Positions 23,061 to 64,000 of a stretch of DNA of 64,000 bases are shown in pieces; positions within the stretch are counted from its first letter, which is position 1; the number at the start of each line of letters is the position of its first letter. The notes under the pieces are model-generated. The model did no database searches. It was given only the letters and a program-made list of their open reading frames with translations, and was not told the origin of the DNA. A program made the translations under genes and the position numbers. The DNA comes from Neoscytalidium dimidiatum (lineage: Eukaryota > Ascomycota > Dothideomycetes > Botryosphaeriales > Botryosphaeriaceae): positions 3,720,001 to 3,784,000 of the forward strand of contig CM074699.1 of assembly GCA_037367355.1 (NCBI GenBank), written 5' to 3'.

Positions 23061-24506
23061 ATGCGTCTCTCTCTCGCTTTCCTCGCCCTCTTGGGCTCTG
23101 CTGCTGCTTGGGATAAGCCCGAATGGAACACCACCACTCCAAGCACTGAGACCGAGACCAAGGTCACTTATGTGACCACCACCATCTGCCCCGTGACAAC
23201 CACCCAGGGGCACACCACTATCACCACATTGACCACTTCGACTCTCACTGTTACTTCGTGCAAGGGAGGCTGCTCGCACTCCACTTACACTCCTCCTCCT
23301 CCACCGCCCACTACCTACACTCCTCCTCCTCCACCTCCTCCTACTACTACCTACACTCCACCGACTTCTTCCTCCAAGGAGATTCCCCCACCACCTCCTA
23401 CCTCTAAGAGCGAGACAACCTACAAGCCTTCCACCTCGGCGCCTCCGGTCTATCCTAATACTACCACCGAGCTCACAAGCACTTACACGGAGCACACCAC
23501 TGTCTACACTACGACCTGCCCTATTACTACGTCTACCGTTTCTACCACCACTGCCACCTCTATCATCACTGTTCCCTGCCATAAGTGCACTGGTGGTATC
23601 ACCACCACGCAGACTGTCACCACTTACACGACAACTTGGTAAGCTTCTCCCGAGTATTCCTACTTGAACTTCGATACTGACGACTTTTTCAGCCCTGTGA
23701 CGACCTCCACGACTTCGTACATCACTAGCGTGATCACTAAGCCGACGACTGTCCCTCTGCCGCCGCCGACTTCCACTCCTGAGGTTTCGGCTCCTCCGCC
23801 ACCGGAGACGACATCCAAGACGCATGTGCCTCCACCGCCGCCGCCTCCGGAGACGACCAAGACGACCAAGATCACGCCCACGCCGTCGACTATCTACCAG
23901 ACGACCACTATCACCAAGTCGTCTTCTGGAACCACCGAGATTTCCACAACGGTTGTTCCCATTCCGCCAACTTACTCTCCTCCCGCTCCATCTGTGCCAG
24001 CTCCATCTGTGCCAGCCCCATCTCCTCCCGCTCCATCTGTGCCGGCACCATCTCCTCCGGCACCTTCTGTTCCCGCCCCGTCTTCGCCGGCGCCATCCGT
24101 TCCGGCTCCCTCTGTTCCGGCTCCCTCTGTTCCGGCTCCCTCTGTTCCGGCTCCCTCTGTTCCGGCTCCCTCTGTTCCGGCTCCCTCTGTTCCGGCTCCC
24201 TCTCACTCGGCGCCTTCTGCTCCGGCGCCCTCCCCGCCAGCACCGAGCGCGCCGGCTCCGGTTCCCTCTTCTGAGGTCTCTCCTCCTCAGCCTCCGCCGG
24301 TTACCTACCCCTCGCCCTCACCCTCGGCCCCAGCTCCTGTCCCGACCACCAGCTACGCTCCGCCGCCGGTCGAGACTACCGCCTCCACGCCTGTGCCTAG
24401 TGCAACTACCCCTGCCGCTCCTCCTCAATTTACCGGAGCAGCTGCCAACTCCAAGCCTGCGGTTGCCGTCATGGCTGGTGTTGCTGCCGTCTTTGCTCTT
24501 CTCTAA
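23061..24506 (+). CDS. Thr/Pro-rich GPI-anchored cell-wall protein
   Basis: Exons 23061-23638 and about 23693-24506, with a short intron of about 54 bp, give 463 aa. A signal peptide (MRLSLAFLALLGSAAAW) is followed by two Thr-rich modules, each with a CPVT/CPIT pair and a CxxC-type motif (CKGGC, CHKC). The junction creates a third CPVTT, which supports the splice. Between and after them lie proline-rich segments with PPPPPP runs, then a long PAPS/VPAPS tandem block. The C-terminus is a small-residue site and a hydrophobic tail (AVAVMAGVAAVFALL), a GPI signal. Thr/Ser density predicts heavy O-glycosylation, so this is a structural or adhesive wall protein. No enzymatic domain is visible. Confidence 0.88.
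24099..24203 (+). repeat. 15-bp minisatellite encoding VPAPS, seven perfect copies
   Basis: Seven identical head-to-tail copies of GTTCCGGCTCCCTCT, each coding VPAPS, inside the wall protein gene. Degenerate copies with other synonymous codons flank it on both sides (about 23985-24250). Identity at third positions points to recent expansion. Confidence 0.95.
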
Positions 24507-52490: not shown

Positions 52491-53517
52491 CTAGTCGAAT
52501 TGATGGGCCTTGCCTAAGTTCTTCCTGGCCATCTCCCATGCGGGACCTACACGGGTCCCCTTCACGGCCTCGAACTCATCGAAGACTTGCTTGGCATGGC
52601 CAACGGCAATGGTCTCGTCTTTAGTGGCCAGGCCCCGTAGCGTGTCTTGGACAAATTCGGCGACCGGCATGCCTGGGTTGAAGCCAGGATCCCAGCCTGG
52701 CTGGCCGTCATGGAGTTCGGCTTCATGGTGGCAAAGCAGAATCATATCAGCGACTGGTGCTCTGGTAAAAGACCAAGATGAAAAGACTCAAAGACTCACT
52801 CTGAACAAGTGGCGTCACGATTTCAATGAGCCTGATCTTGCCTTCTGGAGTCTTAGCAAACTTAAGCTGCTCCCTGACGCTAAGGATGAACGAGTGGAGC
52901 GCTGCCTTTGAGGCGCAATAATTCAGCACCATGGGGTAGGGCACGGACATGAGGCTGGTGGTCGTGCTGAGGTGAAGAGTGTGAGCAATAATGCTTAGGA
53001 TGAGTGGGCTCACTTTGGACTCACTAGACGAGTGCTGATTCGGTGTTGGCGGGCTTGGCTTGGAAGAAGGGCAGGAAGGCGTGGGTCAGAGCAACCATGC
53101 TGATGTAGTTGACGGTGATCTCGTGCTGGATCTTAGAGATGTCAACGGTCCATGCCTTGCTGAAGTCCATGACGTACTGCACGCCGGCATTGAGGAACAC
53201 AGCGTCGAGGTCTGGGTGGGCGTCGATGATGCTGCACTCGAGTCAGCATTTGGGACGGCACGGTCAAGCATGGGGCCTTACCGCTTGGCAAAGCTTGGGA
53301 TCTGGTCAATCTTGGCAAGATCCAGTTGAGCAGCGGAGGCTTTGGCTGAACCGACTGTGGCTAGAAATGAGTCCAACCTGTCCTGGCGGCGGCCGGCGGC
53401 AATGACGAAGACGCCTTCGCCAGCCAAACGGTTAGCGAGCTCCAGCCCAATGCCGCTGGTGGCGCCGATTATGAGTGCTTTCTTGTAAGGGAAAGTCATT
53501 GCAAGCGACGAGATCAT
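52491..53517 (-). CDS. Short-chain dehydrogenase/reductase (cluster)
   Basis: Four exons, 53517-53282, 53231-53025, 52966-52800 and 52759-52491, give 292 aa; a second ATG at 53499 would give 286. The cofactor site is LIIGATSGIGLELANRL with AAGRRQDRL after strand 2, favouring NADP(H). NAG is in VFLNAGVQYV, the catalytic Ser in YTTTSLMSVP and the Tyr/Lys pair in NYCASKAALHSF, so the active site is complete. Intron 3 is only 40 bp and ends AGAG, which makes VQTPVADMILL. The C-terminal tail includes VAEFVQDTLRGLATKDETIA. It probably reduces a ketone or oxidises an alcohol in the cluster's pathway. A perfect inverted-repeat promoter motif lies 124 bp upstream of the start. Confidence 0.88.
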
Positions 53518-53640: not shown

Positions 53641-53656
53641 TTACTCGGTGCCGAGT
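53641..53656 (+). promoter_or_regulatory. Cluster motif, copy A (best match)
   Basis: TTACTCGGTGCCGAGT: the arms ACTCGG and CCGAGT are a perfect inverted repeat around TG, a CGG-N2-CCG layout typical of Zn2Cys6 dimers. It is 124 bp upstream of the dehydrogenase start at 53517. Confidence 0.6.
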
Positions 53657-54003
53657 GTCCACGTGCTCAGCTGACATATTCTCACGCCGATATCTCCTAA
53701 ATCTTATGATTCTACACCACTGAATTCACATTTGCATCAGATGTTCCGTGGATACGCCGGCAGATGCCATCAACAGCACTTCGCGATAGTATGTTCTTCA
53801 ATTTAGTACGGCTGACCTGACGCCAGCGAGATAGACAACAGCACCAATCTCAGAACTGAATCTATGTTTCAATCTTCATCTACTGTGTTAGGTGATAAGC
53901 TTTCCGGCCTGATAGGTGCATAATTGGCTATGCCTTATCAAAGCACATGGCATAGCTGATCGTGGTTGAGACGGCCTGACCGCACAAGATGTGCGTCAAG
54001 TCC

Positions 54004-55162
54004 CTACAAGCATCCATCAAAGCCTTTGCAAAACAGCCAGCGCGTCTTTGATTTTAGGCCCTTCGTCATCCAGTCGTTAATCGTCTTGGGGAATAAATCG
54101 ATCTGATCCAACAACGACTCGTCGTGTGCAATGATCACGAAAATCCGATCATCGGCGTCGAGCTCCTCGATCTTCTTCACCGTATCCAGAGCATCTTCGT
54201 ACGCAGGGAAGAGCCTCTCGCAGACTGTAAAGAACGGCTCCGACGCGGTCTTCTTCGCATGCAACTGCTGGAGTACTGCCCCGGGACATGGCTGGCCCAT
54301 CTTCCGAAAGTAGCTGAGCGGACTCGGCGATAGTGTCTCGGGAAGGGGCAAGTGCTCGGTCGGGCGCAGCACACCCGGATGGTGGCATGCGTCGGCCCCC
54401 ATGAGGACGAACGAGTCGGGAGAGGTGGTCACGCGAGCCAGCCCGCACATGTGTCCGATGGCATGCCCCGGTGCGTCGAGAAGGTAGAACGACCCGTCTC
54501 CGAAAAAGTCCATGGCGTCGAAACGCCCGATCCTGAGGCCTTGGCTCTCCTTCTTCACGTCGATTTCACGGAGTCTGCGCCCGCTCACGTCCGCGTCGAG
54601 TACGATGGCATCCGGCCGGGTCGGGTAGCCTGGGAAAAGCTGGTCCTTTATTCCGGCGCCCACTACCAGCTCGGTCGAGGGAGGGAAGGTAGCGGGGTCC
54701 CCGATGTGATCGAAGTGGCCATGCGACCATATGACGGCCTCGATGTCCTTGCTCCGGATGCCGAGCCCAGAGCTGTCGTCGTCGAGGATTTCGGAAACAT
54801 TCTTCTCCGTTTGCACCACCGTTGTCGCTTTGATTAGCGCTACTGTGCGCGGCGCGTACTCCTCCCAGTCGCGGCGAACGCCCAGGTCGAAGAGGATGTG
54901 GCGGTCTCCGTTGGAGATTAGGAAGCAGTAAATTGGTGCTTTGACCAGATCAAGACCCTTGATGCTGGGCTTCCAAAAGAGCTCCGGGTTGATGTGTATG
55001 GTTGTGGTTCTGTCGTGACCAATGTTAGCTCCAAGAGTGATTTGCGATAAGTGCCCATTAGCGCCTGACGTACGAATCGATCACTCGCACCATCACCGTT
55101 GCCTGTGATGGTGGTATGCTGAGGGCGTAAGGGTCCCTGGGAGTGGCGAGGTGCGAGGTCAT
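54004..55162 (-). CDS. Metallo-beta-lactamase-fold hydrolase (cluster)
   Basis: Exons 55162-55074 and 55009-54004, with a 64-bp intron, give 364 aa. The protein starts MTSHLATPRDPYALSIPPSQ and shows the fold's first metal motif SHGHFDHIGDP near residue 127, the second His in DAPGHAIGHMCGL, the bridging Asp in LMGADACHHPG and a last His in IIAHDESLL. All expected metal ligands are present. The family includes lactonases and thioesterase-like enzymes; in fungal clusters such proteins often release or hydrolyse polyketide products, but that role is inference here. The N-terminal strand pair (SNGDRHILFDLGVRRDW) is typical of the lactonase-like branch. A copy of the cluster motif lies 82 bp upstream. 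Confidence 0.9.
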
Positions 55163-55243
55163 GGTGGCGCGCGTTTTCGAACTTTTTTCACACTTGGGCG
55201 AGAAGGCAAGCTGGTGGATAAAACACTATTTCCCTTGTGCCAG

Positions 55244-55259
55244 TTACTCGGCTCCGCGG
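55244..55259 (+). promoter_or_regulatory. Cluster motif, copy B
   Basis: TTACTCGGCTCCGCGG, 82 bp upstream of the hydrolase start. The left arm is perfect and the CGG-N2-CCG core is kept. Confidence 0.5.
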
Positions 55260-55440
55260 TCCATGCGTGTGTTGCAACTGCAAGGATCCAAGTACCGCCG
55301 ACCTTTGGCCTTACTCAGTGAGATGAAGGCGTGCTATCACTTTTATACGTAGCAGTCACGTTGCCGATTCGTGCCTACCGCGTGATTGGCATGTCATTGT
55401 CCCTGCTGCTATCCAAAACGATTGAGTACTGGCACATGTA

Positions 55441-56377
55441 CTACTTCTCTCTGTAAACGTTGCTGGCGGCGTCACCAAACACCTCCCAGCTGTGGGTCAA
55501 CTGCTCTGCCACAAGCTTGACTCTCGCCGCGACGTCGCGGCCCAAGGGTAGGAATCTCTCGTTTTCGTGTCCGGCTCCCACACCTTGGCCAACAGTGACC
55601 TCATAGATAACCTTTGCAGCCTTATCCTTGTCGCCGTCAGCGGCGAACTTGCCGCTGGCCATGTACTGCATAGTCTGGTCTGCCACAGAACCCTTGTAAT
55701 CTTCTGGTATAGGATTCTTGCCCAGGACGGTGGCGTTGCCCATGTTGGTGTTGAATGTACCAGGGCAAACGGTCAGCACGCGGATATTGAACGGTGCCAC
55801 CTCTTTCGCCAGAACCTTGGACATGCCTAGCCACAATTCAGCTCCGCGGTTCACGATGCACAAAACCGAGTAGATGCTCACCATCAAGTGCCGCCTTGGC
55901 CCCGGCATAGGCGCCCATGCTCTCTCGCCCTTCCAGGGACGCTCCGCTGCTGATGTTGACGATGGCGCCGAACCTCCGCTTGCGCATGTGCGGCAAAACC
56001 GCCCTGATCAACCTGGAGGGGCCAAAGTACAAGGTATCCATTTCGCGGCGGACCTCGTCTTCGGTGAACAACTCGACGGCGTTGTAGATGGAGAAGCCGG
56101 CATTGTTGACCAAAATGTCAATGTGCTGGCCTTGTTGCTCGAGGTCTTCAATCACGCGGCCGCTGTCGAGATCATCCACGTCCAGCTTGACCCACTTGCC
56201 GCCCTTGGACTCGACCTCAGCGACGAGCTCGGGCGTGCGCGATGGGTTGCGCGACGTTGCGATGACGGTGTGTCCGTGGGCCTGGGCTTCGCGGACGAGG
56301 CTAAGACCGAAGCCGGAGGAGCTGCCCGTGATGAGCCAGGTGAGAGCTCTGTTGGGAATTGTGAATGTCGCGGACAT
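55441..56377 (-). CDS. Short-chain dehydrogenase/reductase (cluster, second)
   Basis: Exons 56377-55882 and 55841-55441, with a 40-bp intron, give 298 aa. The cofactor motif is WLITGSSSGFGLSLVREA, strand 2 ends ATSRNPSRTPEL, LDVDDLDS follows, then DILVNNAGFSIYNAV. The active site is NISSGASLEGRESMGAYAGA followed by Lys, so Ser, Tyr and Lys are all present. After the intron comes AELWLGMSKVLAKEVAPFNI and VCPGTFNTNMGN. It differs clearly from the first dehydrogenase in this block and is closer to the classical group often found in fungal metabolite clusters. It lies 278 bp downstream of the hydrolase start on the same strand. A motif copy is about 195 bp upstream of the start. Confidence 0.92.
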
Positions 56378-57334
56378 GTTGGTTGGATGTGTTTGGGAGT
56401 GGCTAGAGGATCGCACGGAAGACAAACCAGTAATATTTATGCAACAGAATGTATGGACTTAAGGCTGCGCCGCCATGGAGTTTAGCGCCTAAAGTCCGGA
56501 TGGCCGTCGCGAATTCATGCCCTTTTCAGCCCCAGCACGTCGGGGAAAAAGACATGCTGCATTTGGTCGACCTCCGAGAACCGAGTAAATCTAACATAGG
56601 CAACCTGAACCTTCGACAAGGTTCCACACGCCGTCTGTAGAAGGTTACGCACGATAAGGCCTCCACATTTCCTGCATTATGAGATTCACAGTCCGTCCCG
56701 TTTGTCTTGGCATGGTGTTGTAGAAAGGGAGGGGAAGCTTCCGCTTGATCCGCCTCCTTTACGCTAAACTGCCTTTAGTGACTACCCACACGTAATATGC
56801 AACAGTCTCTACACAACTTCCCTCATTGCTTCATTATCTCACGTATACATATTGCTGCGCCAGCTCTCTTCTGATGCAGGCCCTCGATGAGGACAATATG
56901 ACGATGCTATCACTGAGACCCCGCGCGCGGCGCTTATCTCACGTTACAGGACAAGCGTTTTCGCCTAACCCATGTCATCTCCACGACGCACCCTCTCACA
57001 AAGTAAGTCACGTAGCAAGGGGAAGATGCGTATCAGTCGCGGTTTGAGGCAGTCAGGAGCGCCGTTGCCACAGCCCCGCTGATAAGACAAGTTCCATATT
57101 CACATGATAACGCTGCAGTTTGCAACTGATCGACGGAAACACAGACGGTTGATCGGCCCTACACAGTGATTGTGGTCTATATAGTTAAAAAGTCTCACTG
57201 ATTTCAAGAAGATAAATACCCCACTCCAAGGTTGTGAGGCGAGTAGAGCCGTGCGTTTCTCCCCAGCGGGATCAAATCTATACTCTTTAGTGGAATGTCT
57301 CGAAGGTCGTTCCCACAGGTGGCGCCTGGTTTTT
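56378..57334. other. Intergenic: dehydrogenase promoter and GMC 3' end
   Basis: No gene seen. It contains motif copy C and the 3' flank of the GMC oxidoreductase gene. Confidence 0.55.
56573..56588 (-). promoter_or_regulatory. Cluster motif, copy C
   Basis: Minus strand TTACTCGGTTCTCGGA. The TTACTCGG half is exact, the second half is imperfect. It lies about 195 bp upstream of the second dehydrogenase and in the same orientation. Confidence 0.45.
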
Positions 57335-59546
57335 TCAGTTGCCATTCTTGATGGCGTCCGCGATCTTCTCAGCCAACATATCTACTTCAGGTCAGCTCTC
57401 GAATTGTTTGACACTGCCAGGTTGCTACCTACATACGGCAGCCTGTGGAGCAGGGCCTATGCAATGAATCTCGGTTAGAGCGGTCGTTCAAAGGTCACGA
57501 GTAGAGTAGATTGGTCGCTCACCTGGAGGCAAAAATGGGAACGCAGATGCGTCAACAACGCGCACTGTAAAATAGCACCATCAGTAAAGAAGCTGCGATG
57601 ACCAGCTCAGGAGATACCAACAATTCTCGACTCCATACACCCTCCCGTTGGTATCCACAACAGCATATTCATCGTCAGGCTTGCCCATCTTACACGTCGA
57701 GCTCGCGTGGTACATTGCGTTGAAGCTCTTCTTGATCTGCTCGTAGATCTCCTCGTCGGTCTGCACGCTGGGGCCGGGGTAGAACTCCTCGCCAATGAGC
57801 ACATTTTCCGACAACGGGGCTGACGCAAAGATCTGGCGCAGGCGCTTGAACGCGGCGACGACGAGCTCGATATCAGACTGTTCGGTGAGCCAGTTGGGGT
57901 TGATGAGAGGCTGGTCGCTCATGCGCGGAGATGAGATGGACAGGTTGCCCCGAGACGACGGGGCCACCAGCGTCGCGAGGATGGTAGCATAGTTGTAGCC
58001 GTCGCGGGGAGCGCTGATGCTGGTGCTTTCAAGATCGCCGACGTAGCTCGGAAGCACGAGATACTGGATCTCTGGCCAATCGTCCGGAAACTCTGCAAGA
58101 GCTGCGTTCGTAGTGAGGACGTCAGTAGGTCACAGGTGATCAAGAGCATATGAAAGGGACATACTATCAATCGTTGCAGAGGAGAAGTTCGCACGAAGCT
58201 CTTCCGGGATCTTTTCATTCCCACAGAAGTCTCCTCCCGGGCTGGACAATGGCCCAGTGCCATTGGCGTTGAACTCGGCAATTGCAATCTCGAGGTTATC
58301 TCCGTACGATAGCATCGTCGAAGTCACTACGTTGACCTTGTGTCCGATACCAAAGAAAACGTGATCGTTCATACCGTGGCCTACGCCTGGCCGGTCTGCA
58401 ACAACAGGGATGCCGAGCCCTTCAAGCACGGCTGCGGGCCCGACACCTGAGACCTGCAAGAGCTGCGGAGACTGGAAGACACCGCCGGAAACGATGACCT
58501 CGCGGTTAGCTGTGAGCGTGTACGTCGTGTTTGCCGTTGTGACTTCGACGCCGCTGGCCACGGTGCCATTCGCAAAGATGATGCGCTCGGCGAGGGTGCC
58601 ATTGAAGAGAGACAGGTTCGGACGGCTGAGGTATGGAGTCAGAAAAGCCGTTTCGGCAGACTCACGGTAGCCATTTTGGTGCTGAACGGTGTCCAGCTGC
58701 CATGCCGATCCCATGAGGTTCCCATTGATGAAGGAGTTGGTGTTCGTCATACCGACGGCTGCCAGCCCCTTCGCCACCCACGTGCTCCAGCTCTGCGAGT
58801 AGGCGGGATAGGTGACGTCGAGTGGGCCTCCCGTTGCGGTGTCGTTCTCGTTGTAGGACGGCGTCGAGTTCGCCAACCTCGTTCCCATGTCCGGTGGTGT
58901 GAAGTTCATGCTCTTTCTGTAAAACTGGACCACGTTCTCGTAGGTGTATGACTGATCTCCCACCTCGTCCGCCCACTTCTGCATGGCTCCCTTGCTCGTA
59001 TGAGCGTATGCCATGAAGTTCAGGCCAGTGCTTCCGCCAATCTTGAAGATTGTCAGCAAAAGTCAACACGAGCATGCTCCAGAAATAACGCACTGTTTTG
59101 CCTCGAATGTAATGGAGTTGCTGACCGTCAGCGCCCTGCAGTGATAGATGGTTAGATCGCGGAAACCGTAGAGTACAAGAATTCTAGCGTACAGCCTGGG
59201 GAGTAGTAATAAAGCCCCAATCCACGTAAGGGATGGTCTCGTTCGGCGATTTTCCATTGTAGTGATAGTCGTAGCCCGGAACTGTGCTCTGGTTCCCAAC
59301 GACGTCTTCGTAAAAAGTGCCTGCTTCGACAATAGCAACAGAGACGGAGGAGTCCTCAGTCAGTCGATTGGCCAAGGTCAAGCCTGCAGGGCCTGCACCG
59401 ACAATCACGTAGTCAAACACGCTTCCGAGGGACTGGCGAACGAATGCATGCGCGCTGAGCGGAGTCGCGCTCACAAGGTACCACTGGTGAAGCAGAGACG
59501 CTACCAAGAACTGCAGCTTGACGGACGGAATCTGCATGTTGGACAT
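57335..59546 (-). CDS. Secreted GMC-family oxidoreductase (cluster)
   Basis: Seven exons, 59546-59193, 59135-59094, 59041-58165, 58101-57622, 57564-57523, 57456-57433 and 57381-57335, give 621 aa. A signal-peptide-like start is followed by the FAD site FDYVIVGAGPAGLTLANRL, signature 1 RGKTIGGSTGLNFMAY (made across an intron), signature 2 SGGVFQSPQLLQVSGVGP, the catalytic His in NAMYHASSTCKMG, and VVDASAFPFLPPG. About a dozen N-glycosylation sites fit secretion. The family oxidises alcohols or closes rings; patulin synthase is a secreted relative. Exon 6 is a 24-bp microexon. With it, the usual PPGHPQ segment reads PPGGPAPQ, lacking the second active-site His. Other splice choices break the frame, but transcripts should settle this. 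Confidence 0.88.
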
Positions 59547-59839
59547 TGTGGGTGCAGCGACAACGGGTCTGATTGGAGAGCCAGAGGTATACTGCAGGGC
59601 CGAATGCTGCAATGAAGTGGGCTAAGTGGAGTGGCCGAAGCAATCTTCTGGATTTAAAAGAGGGGAAACAAGGAAACGAAACAGACAATAGGGCGGCCCA
59701 GTCAGTACTGCGCCCAGCCAGGGTAAGGCTCTACAAACACGAGGAAACCCATGTCAGGGGCAAAGACGCGCATGCGAGTTGATGGCATGGACCTGTGAGT
59801 GACGACAGACTGATCAGGCTGCAGCTGGAGGGATCAGAA

Positions 59840-59855
59840 TTACTCGGTTCCAGCC
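59840..59855 (+). promoter_or_regulatory. Cluster motif, copy D
   Basis: TTACTCGGTTCCAGCC in the divergent GMC/methyltransferase promoter. The left half-site is exact. Confidence 0.45.
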
Positions 59856-59877
59856 ACTTTCGCTTACAAGCCCCGTG

Positions 59878-59892
59878 TACTTGGTGCCGAGT
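59878..59892 (-). promoter_or_regulatory. Cluster motif, copy E
   Basis: Plus strand TACTTGGTGCCGAGT. The right arm GCCGAGT is exact, the left has one mismatch. It is 332 bp upstream of the GMC start. Confidence 0.45.
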
Positions 59893-59949
59893 GGCTTATT
59901 CGTAACAAAATTTCTAGTTCTATTACAGCATCTAGAATTTTTGAAACGG

Positions 59950-59962
59950 TACTCGGATTCCG
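59950..59962 (+). promoter_or_regulatory. Cluster motif, copy F
   Basis: TACTCGGATTCCG, the same half-site with a 3-base instead of 2-base gap before CCG. Confidence 0.4.
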
Positions 59963-60158
59963 TTTGCGAAACTTATCATTATGTGTGTCAGCCATGTATT
60001 GGAGAATGTGGTCCGGGTCGTCGTCCAACAACACTCGCTAAATGCTGCACCAGCTGGCCGATATTGACGCATTTAGTTGGAGCCTCAATCTTTATGCGCT
60101 GCTCTTGTTGACACGATCAAGACTATTTAGGCTCATGGCTTGGGCTGGTAGCAGCCAC

Positions 60159-60174
60159 TTACTCGGGCCCGGGA
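60159..60174 (+). promoter_or_regulatory. Cluster motif, copy G
   Basis: TTACTCGGGCCCGGGA, 152 bp upstream of the methyltransferase start, with an exact half-site and a CGG-N2-CCG core. Confidence 0.5.
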
Positions 60175-60325
60175 CCAAAGCGGGGAGACATGATAAAACC
60201 AGTGACATCCTAGCGCATCAAACCCTACAAATAATTAGCATCAGAAACAGTGTATTCTCTTTCTAGACCGACTGAGTGCGTGCATTTCATCTGCCTAGGT
60301 CTCAGCAGCTACGGACGTGTGAAAG

Positions 60326-61706
60326 ATGGAAAATCCAGAACGCCTCCGAGAGCTCACAACCAAAGTTCAGTCAGCTGTGGACGCGTATATCGAGTCCGAA
60401 GATACTGCAGACTACAAAGCCTTGCAGGCCTGCATTACCCGCTTACAGGTCTGCGTGACGAAACCTGCGGATGTTCTTTACAGTTTCAGAACTCAGGTAT
60501 CAATCGCTGAACTGTCCTGGACACTCTCGCGCATGCTGAATTCTCTACAGGCCATCGAAAATGTTGCAATAGTCATCTTGACTGAAACGGGCGTTCTTGA
60601 TGCTCTGGTGGAGAAGCAGGGGGCTACAGCAACAGCCGCAGAGCTCGCAGCAGCAACGGGCTGCGACAAGCTTGTGATTGGTATGTAACACTCTCCTGTT
60701 CAATCCGATTGCTAAAAGCTCATAATCCATAGTGCGGCTCATGCGCATGGCATGCGCGCTGGTCTTTTGTGAAGAAACAGATGAGATGACATATCGGGCG
60801 AATGCCATAACCTCGTTGCTGGTCAAGCCAGGATGGAAGGGAGGCCTTCGATGGGCGGAAATCATCTATCCAGCCGTCATGAATATCAGGCGCTTCCTCG
60901 CCCAGACCGACTTCGTTCGCACTGGGGACCAGTCGGCGCCGAGCGCCTTTGAATTTCTGCAAGGCAAGAGTATATGGAAGGTCCTTGAGGAGCAACCCGA
61001 CGTGAGGCGAGACTTCGACTTATTCATGCGCGAGAGGAGAGAGTACGAGCAGCACCTCTGGTATCAAAGCTACCCACCGTCTGCGTCACTGAGCATCGGA
61101 GATCTGAAGGCCGACCCGGAGGCCGTCTTAATGGTGGATGTTGGCGGGGCGCTCGGTTCTCAGTTGGTGAACTTCAAGACCCAGTTCCCACATCTCCCTG
61201 GCCGCTACATCTTGCAAGATCTTCAGTTATCGGAATCAGCCAGTTATCCGGAAGGCATCGAAGTGATGGAATATGACTTCTTCACTCCGCAACCCATCAA
61301 AGGTAACTTCTCCTTCTTCCCCCTTTTCTTTTTCTCTCCTCCGTGCCACCAATTCGGAATCCCAGCTGATAACCTTTTCTCTAAAGGTGCCCGTTTCTAC
61401 TACTTTCGCCATGTCTTCCACAACTGGTCAGATCAAAAATGTGTTGAGATCCTACGTAATGTCGTTCAGGCAATGGACTCAGACTACTCCACCCTTTTGA
61501 TCGACGATTTTGTGCTACCAGTGAAAGGCTGCCAGCGCCGTGCTGCCATGGCTGATATGCTCATGATGGTCCTTTTGAACTCCATGGAGAGGACTTCGAC
61601 GCTCTACGAGGAGTTACTTCGTTCTGTGGGTCTGGAAATTTCGAATATTTTCTCAGTCGGCACGAACGAAGAGGCCATCATTGAGGCACGGATTGCACGG
61701 AAATAA
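60326..61706 (+). CDS. O-methyltransferase (cluster)
   Basis: Three exons, 60326-60680, 60733-61302 and 61387-61706, give 414 aa. The N-terminal dimerisation/winged-helix part (ALVEKQGATATAAELAAATG, with an intron before VRLMRM) precedes the AdoMet-binding Rossmann part: MVDVGGALGSQLVNFK is motif I, RYILQDL follows, and GARFYYFRHVFHNWSDQKCV holds the catalytic His. This is the plant/fungal small-molecule O-methyltransferase family common in metabolite clusters. Motif I has GGALG where the family normally has GGGxG; the second Gly-to-Ala change may alter but need not abolish AdoMet binding. The gene is divergent from the GMC gene across a 779-bp region with four motif copies. Substrate unknown, probably a phenolic hydroxyl. 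Confidence 0.92.
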
Positions 61707-63118
61707 ATTTTTACTGTTCTGAAATCTTCGTTTTGACTTCGCGTGCAAATCCGACTTTGTGAGCAGACACCTGAGATGTGAGGGCAATAGTGTGGTGCCG
61801 TGCTCTGTTACTACAACAGCCAGAAGGACTTCGTGGAATGCTGGGGGTGTTGTGGCACAAAAAGAGGTGAAATGAATTGGAAATTCTCTTTGCACTCTCT
61901 TAATGAGAATGATTTGTACGGTAACTGATAAAACAGAGCGTGCTGGTGTCGGCGTATTACTGTGCGCTCTGATTTAGCACGCTGGGGTGCTGGTGTCCAA
62001 GAGGCAAATCAACATTCCCTTAGCAGTGATGAGGTCGAACTTTAGCAAGTACATGTCACATTTCCATTTCGCAACATCATTCCTTCATCAGCATGACGTG
62101 GGTCAGTCACTGAATAGACAGGATGCCGCCCAGGACCTGGAACACCCGACTCCTAGCATGAACTGACCTCACAACGCATGGGAAGCTAAGAATTCAAGAA
62201 GAAAAAAAAATAAAGAGCTACCCCGCAGCGGGGCGTGGACCTGTCGGGGGGTGCTTGGGGTGGGGTGTTTGGGGAATCATCTACGCTGTCTGAGAGACGT
62301 AAGATGCGGTCTTTCGCTAGTGCTGAAAATCTCCTAATACGGCAGTCAATCAGTCTGGAAACACTCGGAAGCTGATACTTACGGCTATTGATTTGGCTGT
62401 ATTGGTATTGAACTGAAGTCATAATGAGTTGCAATGAGTACTGATGAGAAGTAAAAGAAGTGAATTGGCATGATAGTGGAGAAAATCAATGTGACCTATT
62501 CATACACATGGAAAATACGCTAATAAATGGTTCACTAATATGAGGGGCTTATGTGTACTCTAATGTATACGTTGCTGAATGCGTTATCGGTGTGAAAGTA
62601 TACTATTGTTTTAACTTACAATGGGTTTCACACCCGGCCCGATGGCGCAGAACGGTGCCTAGCGCTTGTCAGTGCAGACAAACTCGAAGGAGAAGCGATA
62701 AGAGACCTCTCTTCCACGTCACAGCTGGTGCTTTGTTCAGCCCTAAGACGGTGCGTATGCCAGGCTCGACTCGCGGCGGAGCTTGTGGACACGACCCACG
62801 GCGGGGTTCCAGTCAGTGAGCTGGCCTGGCAGGTGCGCAGAGTTCCCAGTGGTGGTGCTGTTGACAAGAAGCAGGTCAGGGTGGGTTCGCTGTGGCTAGC
62901 TGCCGATGCTGCCCCAAGCTTTAAGCAAGGGCACGGAGCCGGGCGAAGCGGCAGGGTCGACGTCGGGAGAAGAAACCGCATCAGCGAGGTCCATCTGGAG
63001 CTCTACAGGTGTTTTATACGAAGTTGTGCAAGCACAGATTTTTGATCTCACTCGAGTCCATGGGCTCAGCTTACAACCAATATTAGTGTCTTGTCGGCCG
63101 ATACTGACCGTGGGGCAC

Positions 63119-63133
63119 GTACTCGGTGTAGTG
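63119..63133 (+). promoter_or_regulatory. Cluster motif, copy H
   Basis: GTACTCGGTGTAGTG, 232 bp upstream of the P450 start. Half-site only. A degenerate further copy, TACTTGGATCCCG, sits at about 63148-63160. Confidence 0.4.
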
Positions 63134-63162
63134 TTAGGGTCGAATCGTACTTGGATCCCGAT

Positions 63163-63178
63163 TTACTCGGTGTCGATA
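63163..63178 (+). promoter_or_regulatory. Cluster motif, copy I
   Basis: TTACTCGGTGTCGATA, 187 bp upstream of the P450 start. Half-site exact; the second arm has one mismatch in the core. Confidence 0.45.
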
Positions 63179-63364: not shown

Positions 63365-64000
63365 ATGACGCCAAGCTCTTACCTGGCGATAGCAGCGTTG
63401 CTACTTCTGGGTTTCCAGCTGGTACGGACATGGTGGAGGCTGAAGAGCATCCCAGGCCCTTTCTGGGCCAAGATCACCAACTTCCAACGAGTCTTCTGGG
63501 TCAAGACTGGCCGTGCCCACGAAATACATATGGAGATGCATGAGAAATACGGTGATTTTGTGCGCTTTGGGCCCAACATGGTCTCCATTGGCGATCCCGC
63601 CGCCATTCCGACCGTCTACCCCATGCGCCCGGGCTTTCCAAAGGTAAAATGAAAAGAAGCCAACGGGAATATAATCGACATTTGGAGGCAATTTGCTAAT
63701 CTTGCGCTGGATTGTGCCACGTTAGAGCAATTTTTACAGAACGTTGATGCCCTATACGAAAAAGGGGGGTGCTCTGCCGGCTGTCTTCAATACTCGGGAC
63801 GAAAAGCTGCATAAGCAAATCAAGAACCCGATTGCGCCGCTTTTCTCCATGTCAAGTGTCGTGACGTACGAACCCTTCGTCAACGAGGTTCTAGAGATCA
63901 TGTGCAAGCAGCTTGACGAGCGATTCGTGAGCTCTGCCCAAATCTTCGACCTCGGGGAATGGTTGCAATTCTTTGCATTCGACGTAATGGGTACCCTTAC
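63365..64000 (+). CDS. Cytochrome P450, 5' part (runs off window)
   Basis: Exon 1 (63365-63643) starts with a membrane anchor, [20 protein letters not shown], then the proline hinge [14 protein letters not shown] and [20 protein letters not shown], the usual fungal P450 N-terminus. After an 82-bp intron (acceptor TTAG at 63722-63725), exon 2 continues [20 protein letters not shown] and [20 protein letters not shown], then [18 protein letters not shown], which resembles the pisatin demethylase/benzoate hydroxylase-like branch. The I-helix and haem-binding Cys lie beyond position 64000. P450s of this kind hydroxylate or demethylate small molecules at the ER membrane. Two motif copies in its promoter tie it to the cluster to its left. 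Confidence 0.9.

Follow-up and report, generated by a model that had tools for sequence, protein, structure and literature searches.

A shared promoter element and its likely Zn2Cys6 regulator in a polyketide gene cluster of Neoscytalidium dimidiatum

Zinc-cluster (Zn2Cys6) proteins of the type considered here bind CGG-containing half-sites, commonly as dimers. Two systems are the closest described to ours. For GliZ and SirZ, two reports give the site TCGGN3CCGA, proposed from promoter analysis (PMC8191991, PMC4006717). The motif is listed there in eight sir promoters of the sirodesmin cluster (PMC8191991) and at every gli gene but gliZ and gliA of the gliotoxin cluster (PMC4006717), and in a third report an electrophoretic mobility shift assay with a GliZ homologue gave binding to three of the seven gli promoters tested (PMC7022936). 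The sites of AflR, TCG(N5)CGA or TCGSWNNSCGR, open with TCG and may depart from a perfect palindrome (PMC7344883). Here we describe the word TTACTCGG, found in the promoters of a polyketide gene cluster of Neoscytalidium dimidiatum. The cluster begins in a 64-kb stretch, hereafter the window (C5:3720001-3784000 of a 43.76-Mb genome in 40 contigs).

Taken from the sequence, the enrichment of the word, its rarity elsewhere, its placement by gene starts, a preferred spacing and the presence of a regulator gene in the cluster converge on one explanation: TTACTCGG-N2/3-CCG would be a shared promoter element, and is likely the binding site through which an AflR-type Zn2Cys6 protein encoded in the cluster activates it. 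A preliminary description of the window had noticed the repeated motif and read it as the mark of a regulon. The observation is confirmed, in stronger form than first described, and the interpretation is supported by what follows. To cover the whole cluster, 100 kb on each side were joined to the window, giving 264 kb; positions above 64000 are window coordinates carried on (L009 is 64001-74000 and L010 is 74001-84000).

Counted on both strands, TTACTCGG occurs 698 times in the genome, or once per 63 kb, and its reversed control word is commoner (973). The rate of once per 8 kb previously assumed for a 7-mer is right for random DNA, and the real rate of the 8-mer is that lower one. The cluster (52491-83480, 30,990 bp) carries nine exact copies where the rate in the rest of the genome predicts 0.49 (P = 2.8e-9, a somewhat favourable value for a reason given below). 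A crude correction over every 31-kb window leaves P at about 8e-6. Six of the nine lie in the window, all within 53641-63170, so that 53641-63178 alone holds six copies against 0.15 expected at the genome rate (P = 1.4e-8), far above chance, as had been claimed. No exact copy is found at window positions 1-53640, in agreement with the absence of such a grouping left of 52.5 kb noted earlier. The other three stand past the right window edge, at 66821, 76904 and 81654. On either side of these nine, three copies occur in the 153.6 kb left of 53641 (2.4 expected at the genome rate) and none in the 82 kb right of the last copy (1.3 expected). When one mismatch is permitted, no window-wide excess is seen (32 against 37.7 expected in shuffles). 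The excess is local and confined to exact copies. A genome-wide count had been named beforehand as the test that could speak against a regulon by showing equal frequency elsewhere; the count gives no such result.

Two further controls are independent of having chosen the word. All words of 7 to 10 bases with at least three occurrences in 52501-83500 were ranked blindly against a fourth-order Markov model. At each length the top word was TTACTCGG itself, a fragment of it or a longer form containing it; among 17,982 distinct 8-mers it was seen nine times for 0.54 expected (P = 6e-9). Across the 8,019 bp of intergenic DNA in the cluster, its anagrams (1,680 strand pairs) have a mean of 0.21 copies, and those not overlapping the motif reach a maximum of three, against nine for the word itself.

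The exact sites, numbered 1 to 9, and the variant sites are as follows; SDR stands for short-chain dehydrogenase, GMC for the oxidoreductase family of that name, OMT for O-methyltransferase and P450 for cytochrome P450.

53641..53656, plus strand: site 1, TTACTCGGTGCCGAGT, a perfect ACTCGG-N2-CCGAGT inverted repeat, 142 bp upstream of SDR1
55244..55256, plus strand: site 2, TTACTCGGCTCCG, 82 bp upstream of the metallo-beta-lactamase-fold gene
56574..56588 (core 56581-56588), minus strand: site 3, TTACTCGGTTCTCGG, 204 bp upstream of SDR2
59840..59852, plus strand: site 4, TTACTCGGTTCCA, between the divergently transcribed GMC and OMT1 genes, 294 bp from the start of GMC
59879..59892, plus strand: variant site ACTTGGTGCCGAGT, a perfect inverted repeat but for one base
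59949..59962, plus strand: variant site GTACTCGGATTCCG, N3 spacing
60159..60171, plus strand: site 5, TTACTCGGGCCCG, 160 bp upstream of OMT1
63119..63126, plus strand: variant site GTACTCGG, 239 bp upstream of P450a
63163..63175, plus strand: site 6, TTACTCGGTGTCG, 195 bp upstream of P450a
66821-66828, plus strand: site 7, TTACTCGG lacking a second half; the start of the regulator is 132 bp away and that of the polyketide synthase 576 bp
76904-76916, plus strand: site 8, TTACTCGGTGCCG, 278 bp from P450b
77093-77105, minus strand: variant site CTACTCGGCGCCG, 84 bp from P450b
81654-81667, plus strand: site 9, TTACTCGGTTCCCG, 181 bp from OMT2

The copies of the preliminary description are recovered in this list, with some corrections. 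Those at 53641, 55244, 59840, 60159 and 63163 are exact. The minus-strand copy is real and lies at 56581-56588, not at 56573. The sites placed at 59950 and 63119 are present (at 59949 and 63119) with the core GTACTCGG, one mismatch from TTACTCGG, and are not exact, and the copy at 59878, given as one mismatch away, is two mismatches from the 8-mer on either strand. The best copy was rightly called a perfect inverted repeat with a CGG-N2-CCG centre, ACTCGG-TG-CCGAGT at 53643-53656 having 6-bp arms. Genome-wide, ACTCGGNNCCGAGT matches at three places and ACTYGGNNCCRAGT at seven, two of these in the cluster region; since the reversed control pattern has nine places, such palindromes are neither common nor enriched in the genome as a whole.

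Given the core, the second half-site is itself enriched. CCG follows after two bases in four of the nine cluster copies and in 14 of the 689 elsewhere (P = 4e-5), a pattern taken over from the earlier work, and TKY follows in 6/9 against 33/689 (P = 1.5e-6), a pattern chosen after the cluster sites had been seen. With ACTCGG-Nx-CCG searched at x = 0-12 in cluster intergenic DNA, six strand-hits were obtained at N2 (the palindrome counted twice) and two at N3, the remaining 11 spacings giving none, whereas the 28 matches in the rest of the 264 kb have no such preference. The geometry of a CGG/CCG inverted repeat at a preferred spacing is present, though in four of the nine exact copies no CCG stands at either distance, and the right half-site is loose and variable. 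That CCG "usually" follows two or three bases on was slightly strong, as it does so in five of the nine copies then listed (53641, 55244, 59878, 59949 and 60159). On the left side of the core, T at -6 (7/9), C at -4 (6/9) and A at -2 (7/9) are mildly preferred.

The cluster had been taken to comprise six genes. It extends over 31 kb, reaching 19.5 kb beyond the right window edge, with 11 gene models and one SDR remnant:

52491..53499, minus strand: SDR1, short-chain dehydrogenase (PF00106)
54007..55162, minus strand: metallo-beta-lactamase-fold hydrolase, MBL (PF00753)
55441..56377, minus strand: SDR2, short-chain dehydrogenase (PF00106)
57336..59546, minus strand: GMC oxidoreductase (PF00732 and PF05199)
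60326..61706, plus strand: OMT1, O-methyltransferase (PF00891)
63365 to about 65235, plus strand: P450a, cytochrome P450, crossing the window edge at 64000 (PF00067 fragments)
65589-66689, minus strand: Zn2Cys6 regulator, 367 aa (PF08493)
67404-75176, plus strand: non-reducing polyketide synthase (NR-PKS) region
75780-76640, minus strand: degraded SDR
77189-78835, plus strand: P450b
79393-80777, minus strand: Myb-type protein
81842 to about 83480, plus strand: OMT2 (sub-threshold Pfam matches)

By these hand-drawn models all nine exact copies are intergenic, as previously stated, with none in 22,971 bp of genes. Among the 11 gaps of the cluster, a copy is found in all eight that contain a gene start and in none of the three between two gene ends. 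All nine lie at most 300 bp from a start, a distance within which 44% of the intergenic DNA falls (P = 6e-4 given that they are intergenic). The nearest exact copy is 82-294 bp upstream of SDR1, MBL, SDR2, GMC, OMT1, P450a, the regulator, P450b and OMT2; for the degraded SDR, measured from its limit as drawn, the distance is 264 bp. The earlier claim of an upstream copy for each of the six window genes holds with exact copies, at 142, 82, 204, 294, 160 and 195 bp in the order listed. One motif is present in most promoters of the cluster and is rare elsewhere.

A cluster-specific Zn2Cys6 regulator had been predicted to the right of the window, and an AflR-family gene is found there, 1.6 kb past the edge, between a cytochrome P450 gene and the NR-PKS. 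Its product matches the AflR domain PF08493 with 26.6 bits (cut-off 24), and its translation reads CX2CX6CX8CX2CX6C followed by a basic stretch; the assignment as a zinc cluster comes mainly from this cysteine pattern, since the Zn_clus match is below cut-off. A resemblance to LAC9, PPR1 and GAL4 can be made out in the zinc clusters, at E values (0.9 to 4) that are not significant. Among 7,997 candidates scored for relatives, one protein passed, 90% identical. Judged by its translation, a Zn2Cys6 regulator gene is inside the cluster.

The regulator would bind TTACTCGG-N2/3-CCG as a dimer, with ACTCGG as the strong half and CCG as the weak one, and would activate rather than repress, switching the cluster genes on together. 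Through the half-site at 66821 it could also control its own gene, by feedback, and the polyketide synthase. A more specific proposal, which we put forward only tentatively, is that this AflR-family protein reads a long and strong half-site of 8 bp, TTACTCGG, preferably preceded by T at -6, C at -4 and A at -2, together with a flexible weak CCG at N2 or N3, a word that would be new for zinc-cluster regulators, and perhaps with the Myb-type protein as partner. In titles and abstract openings of the open PMC literature, TTACTCGG was not found as a zinc-cluster binding site, nor was a Botryosphaeriaceae polyketide synthase cluster treated together with Zn2Cys6 found in open PMC literature.

As in the GliZ and SirZ systems, a Zn2Cys6 regulator encoded in the cluster goes with one CGG/CCG inverted-repeat motif in most promoters of a single cluster. 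Unlike in theirs, the two halves here mostly stand at N2 and sometimes at N3; the half-site on the left is lengthened to TTACTCGG, and the one on the right is loose. An NR-PKS was identified as the core enzyme, no search having been aimed at an epipolythiodioxopiperazine non-ribosomal peptide synthetase, the mark of GliZ/SirZ clusters. With the AflR regulon the locus shares a regulator carrying PF08493 and an NR-PKS cluster, and the AflR sites resemble those found here in their opening TCG and in tolerating an imperfect palindrome. It differs in the C-methyltransferase domain of its polyketide synthase and in the cysteine spacing, which for AflR is CX2CX6CX6CX2CX6C (PMC7344883) and here has CX8 in the middle. 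Neither consensus could be retained as the code of this cluster, both being absent from its gaps, though no more so than chance allows for rare words: in the 8,019 bp of intergenic DNA, TCGGN3CCGA has no match against 0.18 expected by rate (absent, not depleted) and TCGSWNNSCGR, the consensus of Aspergillus parasiticus AflR, none against 1.1. The looser TCGN5CGR occurs five times for 9.8 expected, one occurrence being site 3. Since neither consensus is in the gaps, the best reading is a regulon of GliZ/SirZ/AflR-style design that would use its own new word and would be neither system itself.

If so, the motif suggests where the cluster ends (SDR1 to OMT2), what its switch is likely to be, and a DNA specificity unlike the two best-known cluster codes. 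With it, an unannotated stretch of fungal DNA would become a bounded unit open to testing, one that offers a way into a probably C-methylated polyketide pathway as well as a data point on how zinc-cluster proteins change their binding word.

Several observations weigh against a regulon governed by the Zn2Cys6 protein. The Zn_clus match of the regulator is 16 bits, under the Pfam cut-off of 21, and a second candidate regulator, the Myb-type protein, is encoded in the same cluster. The nearest exact copy is 576 bp from the NR-PKS start and 877 bp from the Myb gene; the regulator (132 bp) and the NR-PKS share a single half-site without CCG as their only nearby exact copy. CCG stands at N2 or N3 in only five of the nine exact copies (sites 3, 4, 6 and 7 are without), and N3-CCG taken alone is little enriched, with one of the ten genome places of TTACTCGGNNNCCG in the cluster (P = 0.006). 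The gene limits were hand-drawn from open frames and start codons, and those of the cluster, although gene-based, were drawn with the motif positions known, which makes the P of 2.8e-9 somewhat favourable. Finally, pooling TTACTCGGTKY, TTACTCGGNNCCG and TTACTCGGNNNCCG gives one other close pair in the genome, C5:1881514 and 1889408, 7.9 kb apart.

The Myb-type protein might itself bind TTACTCGG, alone or with the Zn2Cys6 protein. Its gene lies inside the motif-bounded cluster, and a site made of an 8-bp core and a loose second half could accommodate two different proteins next to each other. We nevertheless regard this as unlikely: the CGG-N2-CCG geometry is typical of zinc-cluster proteins and not of Myb sites, and the Myb gene has its own nearest copy 877 bp away. 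Still less probable is a general fungal regulatory site, for instance of the nitrate or fatty-acid zinc-cluster type, dense here by accident. Site 2 does run into CTCCGCGG, which fits the NirA-type consensus CTCCGHGG; against this, the genome-wide total of TTACTCGG is below that of its reversed control, and among the words of such sites CCTCGG (three, 5.6 expected) and CTCCGNGG (two, 1.25 expected) have no clear enrichment in cluster intergenic DNA. Nor does any second 31-kb stretch hold two of the 39 TTACTCGGTKY places, of which the cluster has six, or, outside the cluster, two of the 18 TTACTCGGNNCCG places; it is to these fully listed sub-patterns that "densest in the genome" applies.

The copies might instead be left over from a repeat element or from duplicated promoters and have no regulatory meaning. 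This explanation starts from the fact that some other groups of TTACTCGG in the genome, on C1 and C2, are repeats. Among 100 of the 698 places that were listed, the most in 31 kb is six, on C2; in 9.5 kb read from that stretch (37% GC) three of four copies belong to repeats, and the fourth sits in AT-rich sequence. The two C2 repeat stretches are 88-90% alike to one C1 stretch over up to 1.8 kb of 37-40% GC DNA. Nothing in the 264 kb around the cluster matches this repeat, and the flanks of the nine sites, compared in register (-60 to -6 and +20 to +79), have mean identities of 25% and 23%, with a maximum of 40%, so that most cluster copies were not produced by copying. SDR1 and the degraded SDR do have their site within a shared 20-bp match, on a diagonal differing from that of the coding matches, and this pair may be of shared descent; placement by gene starts is unexpected for repeats. 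We consider this explanation largely refuted and very improbable. Chance alone could be invoked because the word was picked after looking and gives no window-wide excess with one mismatch, but the blind ranking, the anagram control, the genome rate and the enrichment of the second half given the core refute it at the level of sequence and leave it hardly credible. The binding of the cluster's own Zn2Cys6 protein is the reading we keep.

We also considered TTACTCGG as a general marker of AflR-type loci. The genome has four other PF08493 places and eight other SAT-domain matches; counting the fully listed sub-patterns only, a place is found near one of the four PF08493 loci (C1:2480941, about 11 kb from C1:2491676). 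As this is only one in four, the word is not a general mark of such loci, and the idea was ruled out.

The AT-rich repeat mentioned above (L029:251-2048 and L030; 37-40% GC) carries TTACTCGGTATCG and a second TTACTCGG 790 bp off. TTACTCGGTATCG accounts for many of the 49 genome-wide places of TTACTCGGNNYCG.

Within the cluster, the polyketide synthase frames encode SAT in the first, KS and AT with a dehydratase/product-template-like domain, two ACP and a C-methyltransferase in the second, and an esterase-type hydrolase in the third. Among its best 120 matches (query L009:3302-9999) there is one close relative at 93% identity, the others being at 42-51%, with Aplosporella, Sclerophora and Macrophomina as the best named in that group; one close relative with the rest so distant suggests a patchily distributed cluster. 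Stops interrupt each of the three frames of the degraded SDR, which is paralogous to SDR1 and in parts retains about 44-62% protein identity to it (tblastx). A gene for a Myb-type DNA-binding protein stands alongside that of a zinc-cluster regulator in this polyketide cluster. Elsewhere in the window, an open frame at 23664-24506 contains a long run of PAPSVPAPS-type repeats and possibly encodes a wall or surface protein, and a carboxypeptidase Y-like protein, which taken by itself places the fungus probably in or near the Botryosphaeriaceae, has its five best hits, 91-93% identical, in Diplodia, Macrophomina, Lasiodiplodia and Botryosphaeria.

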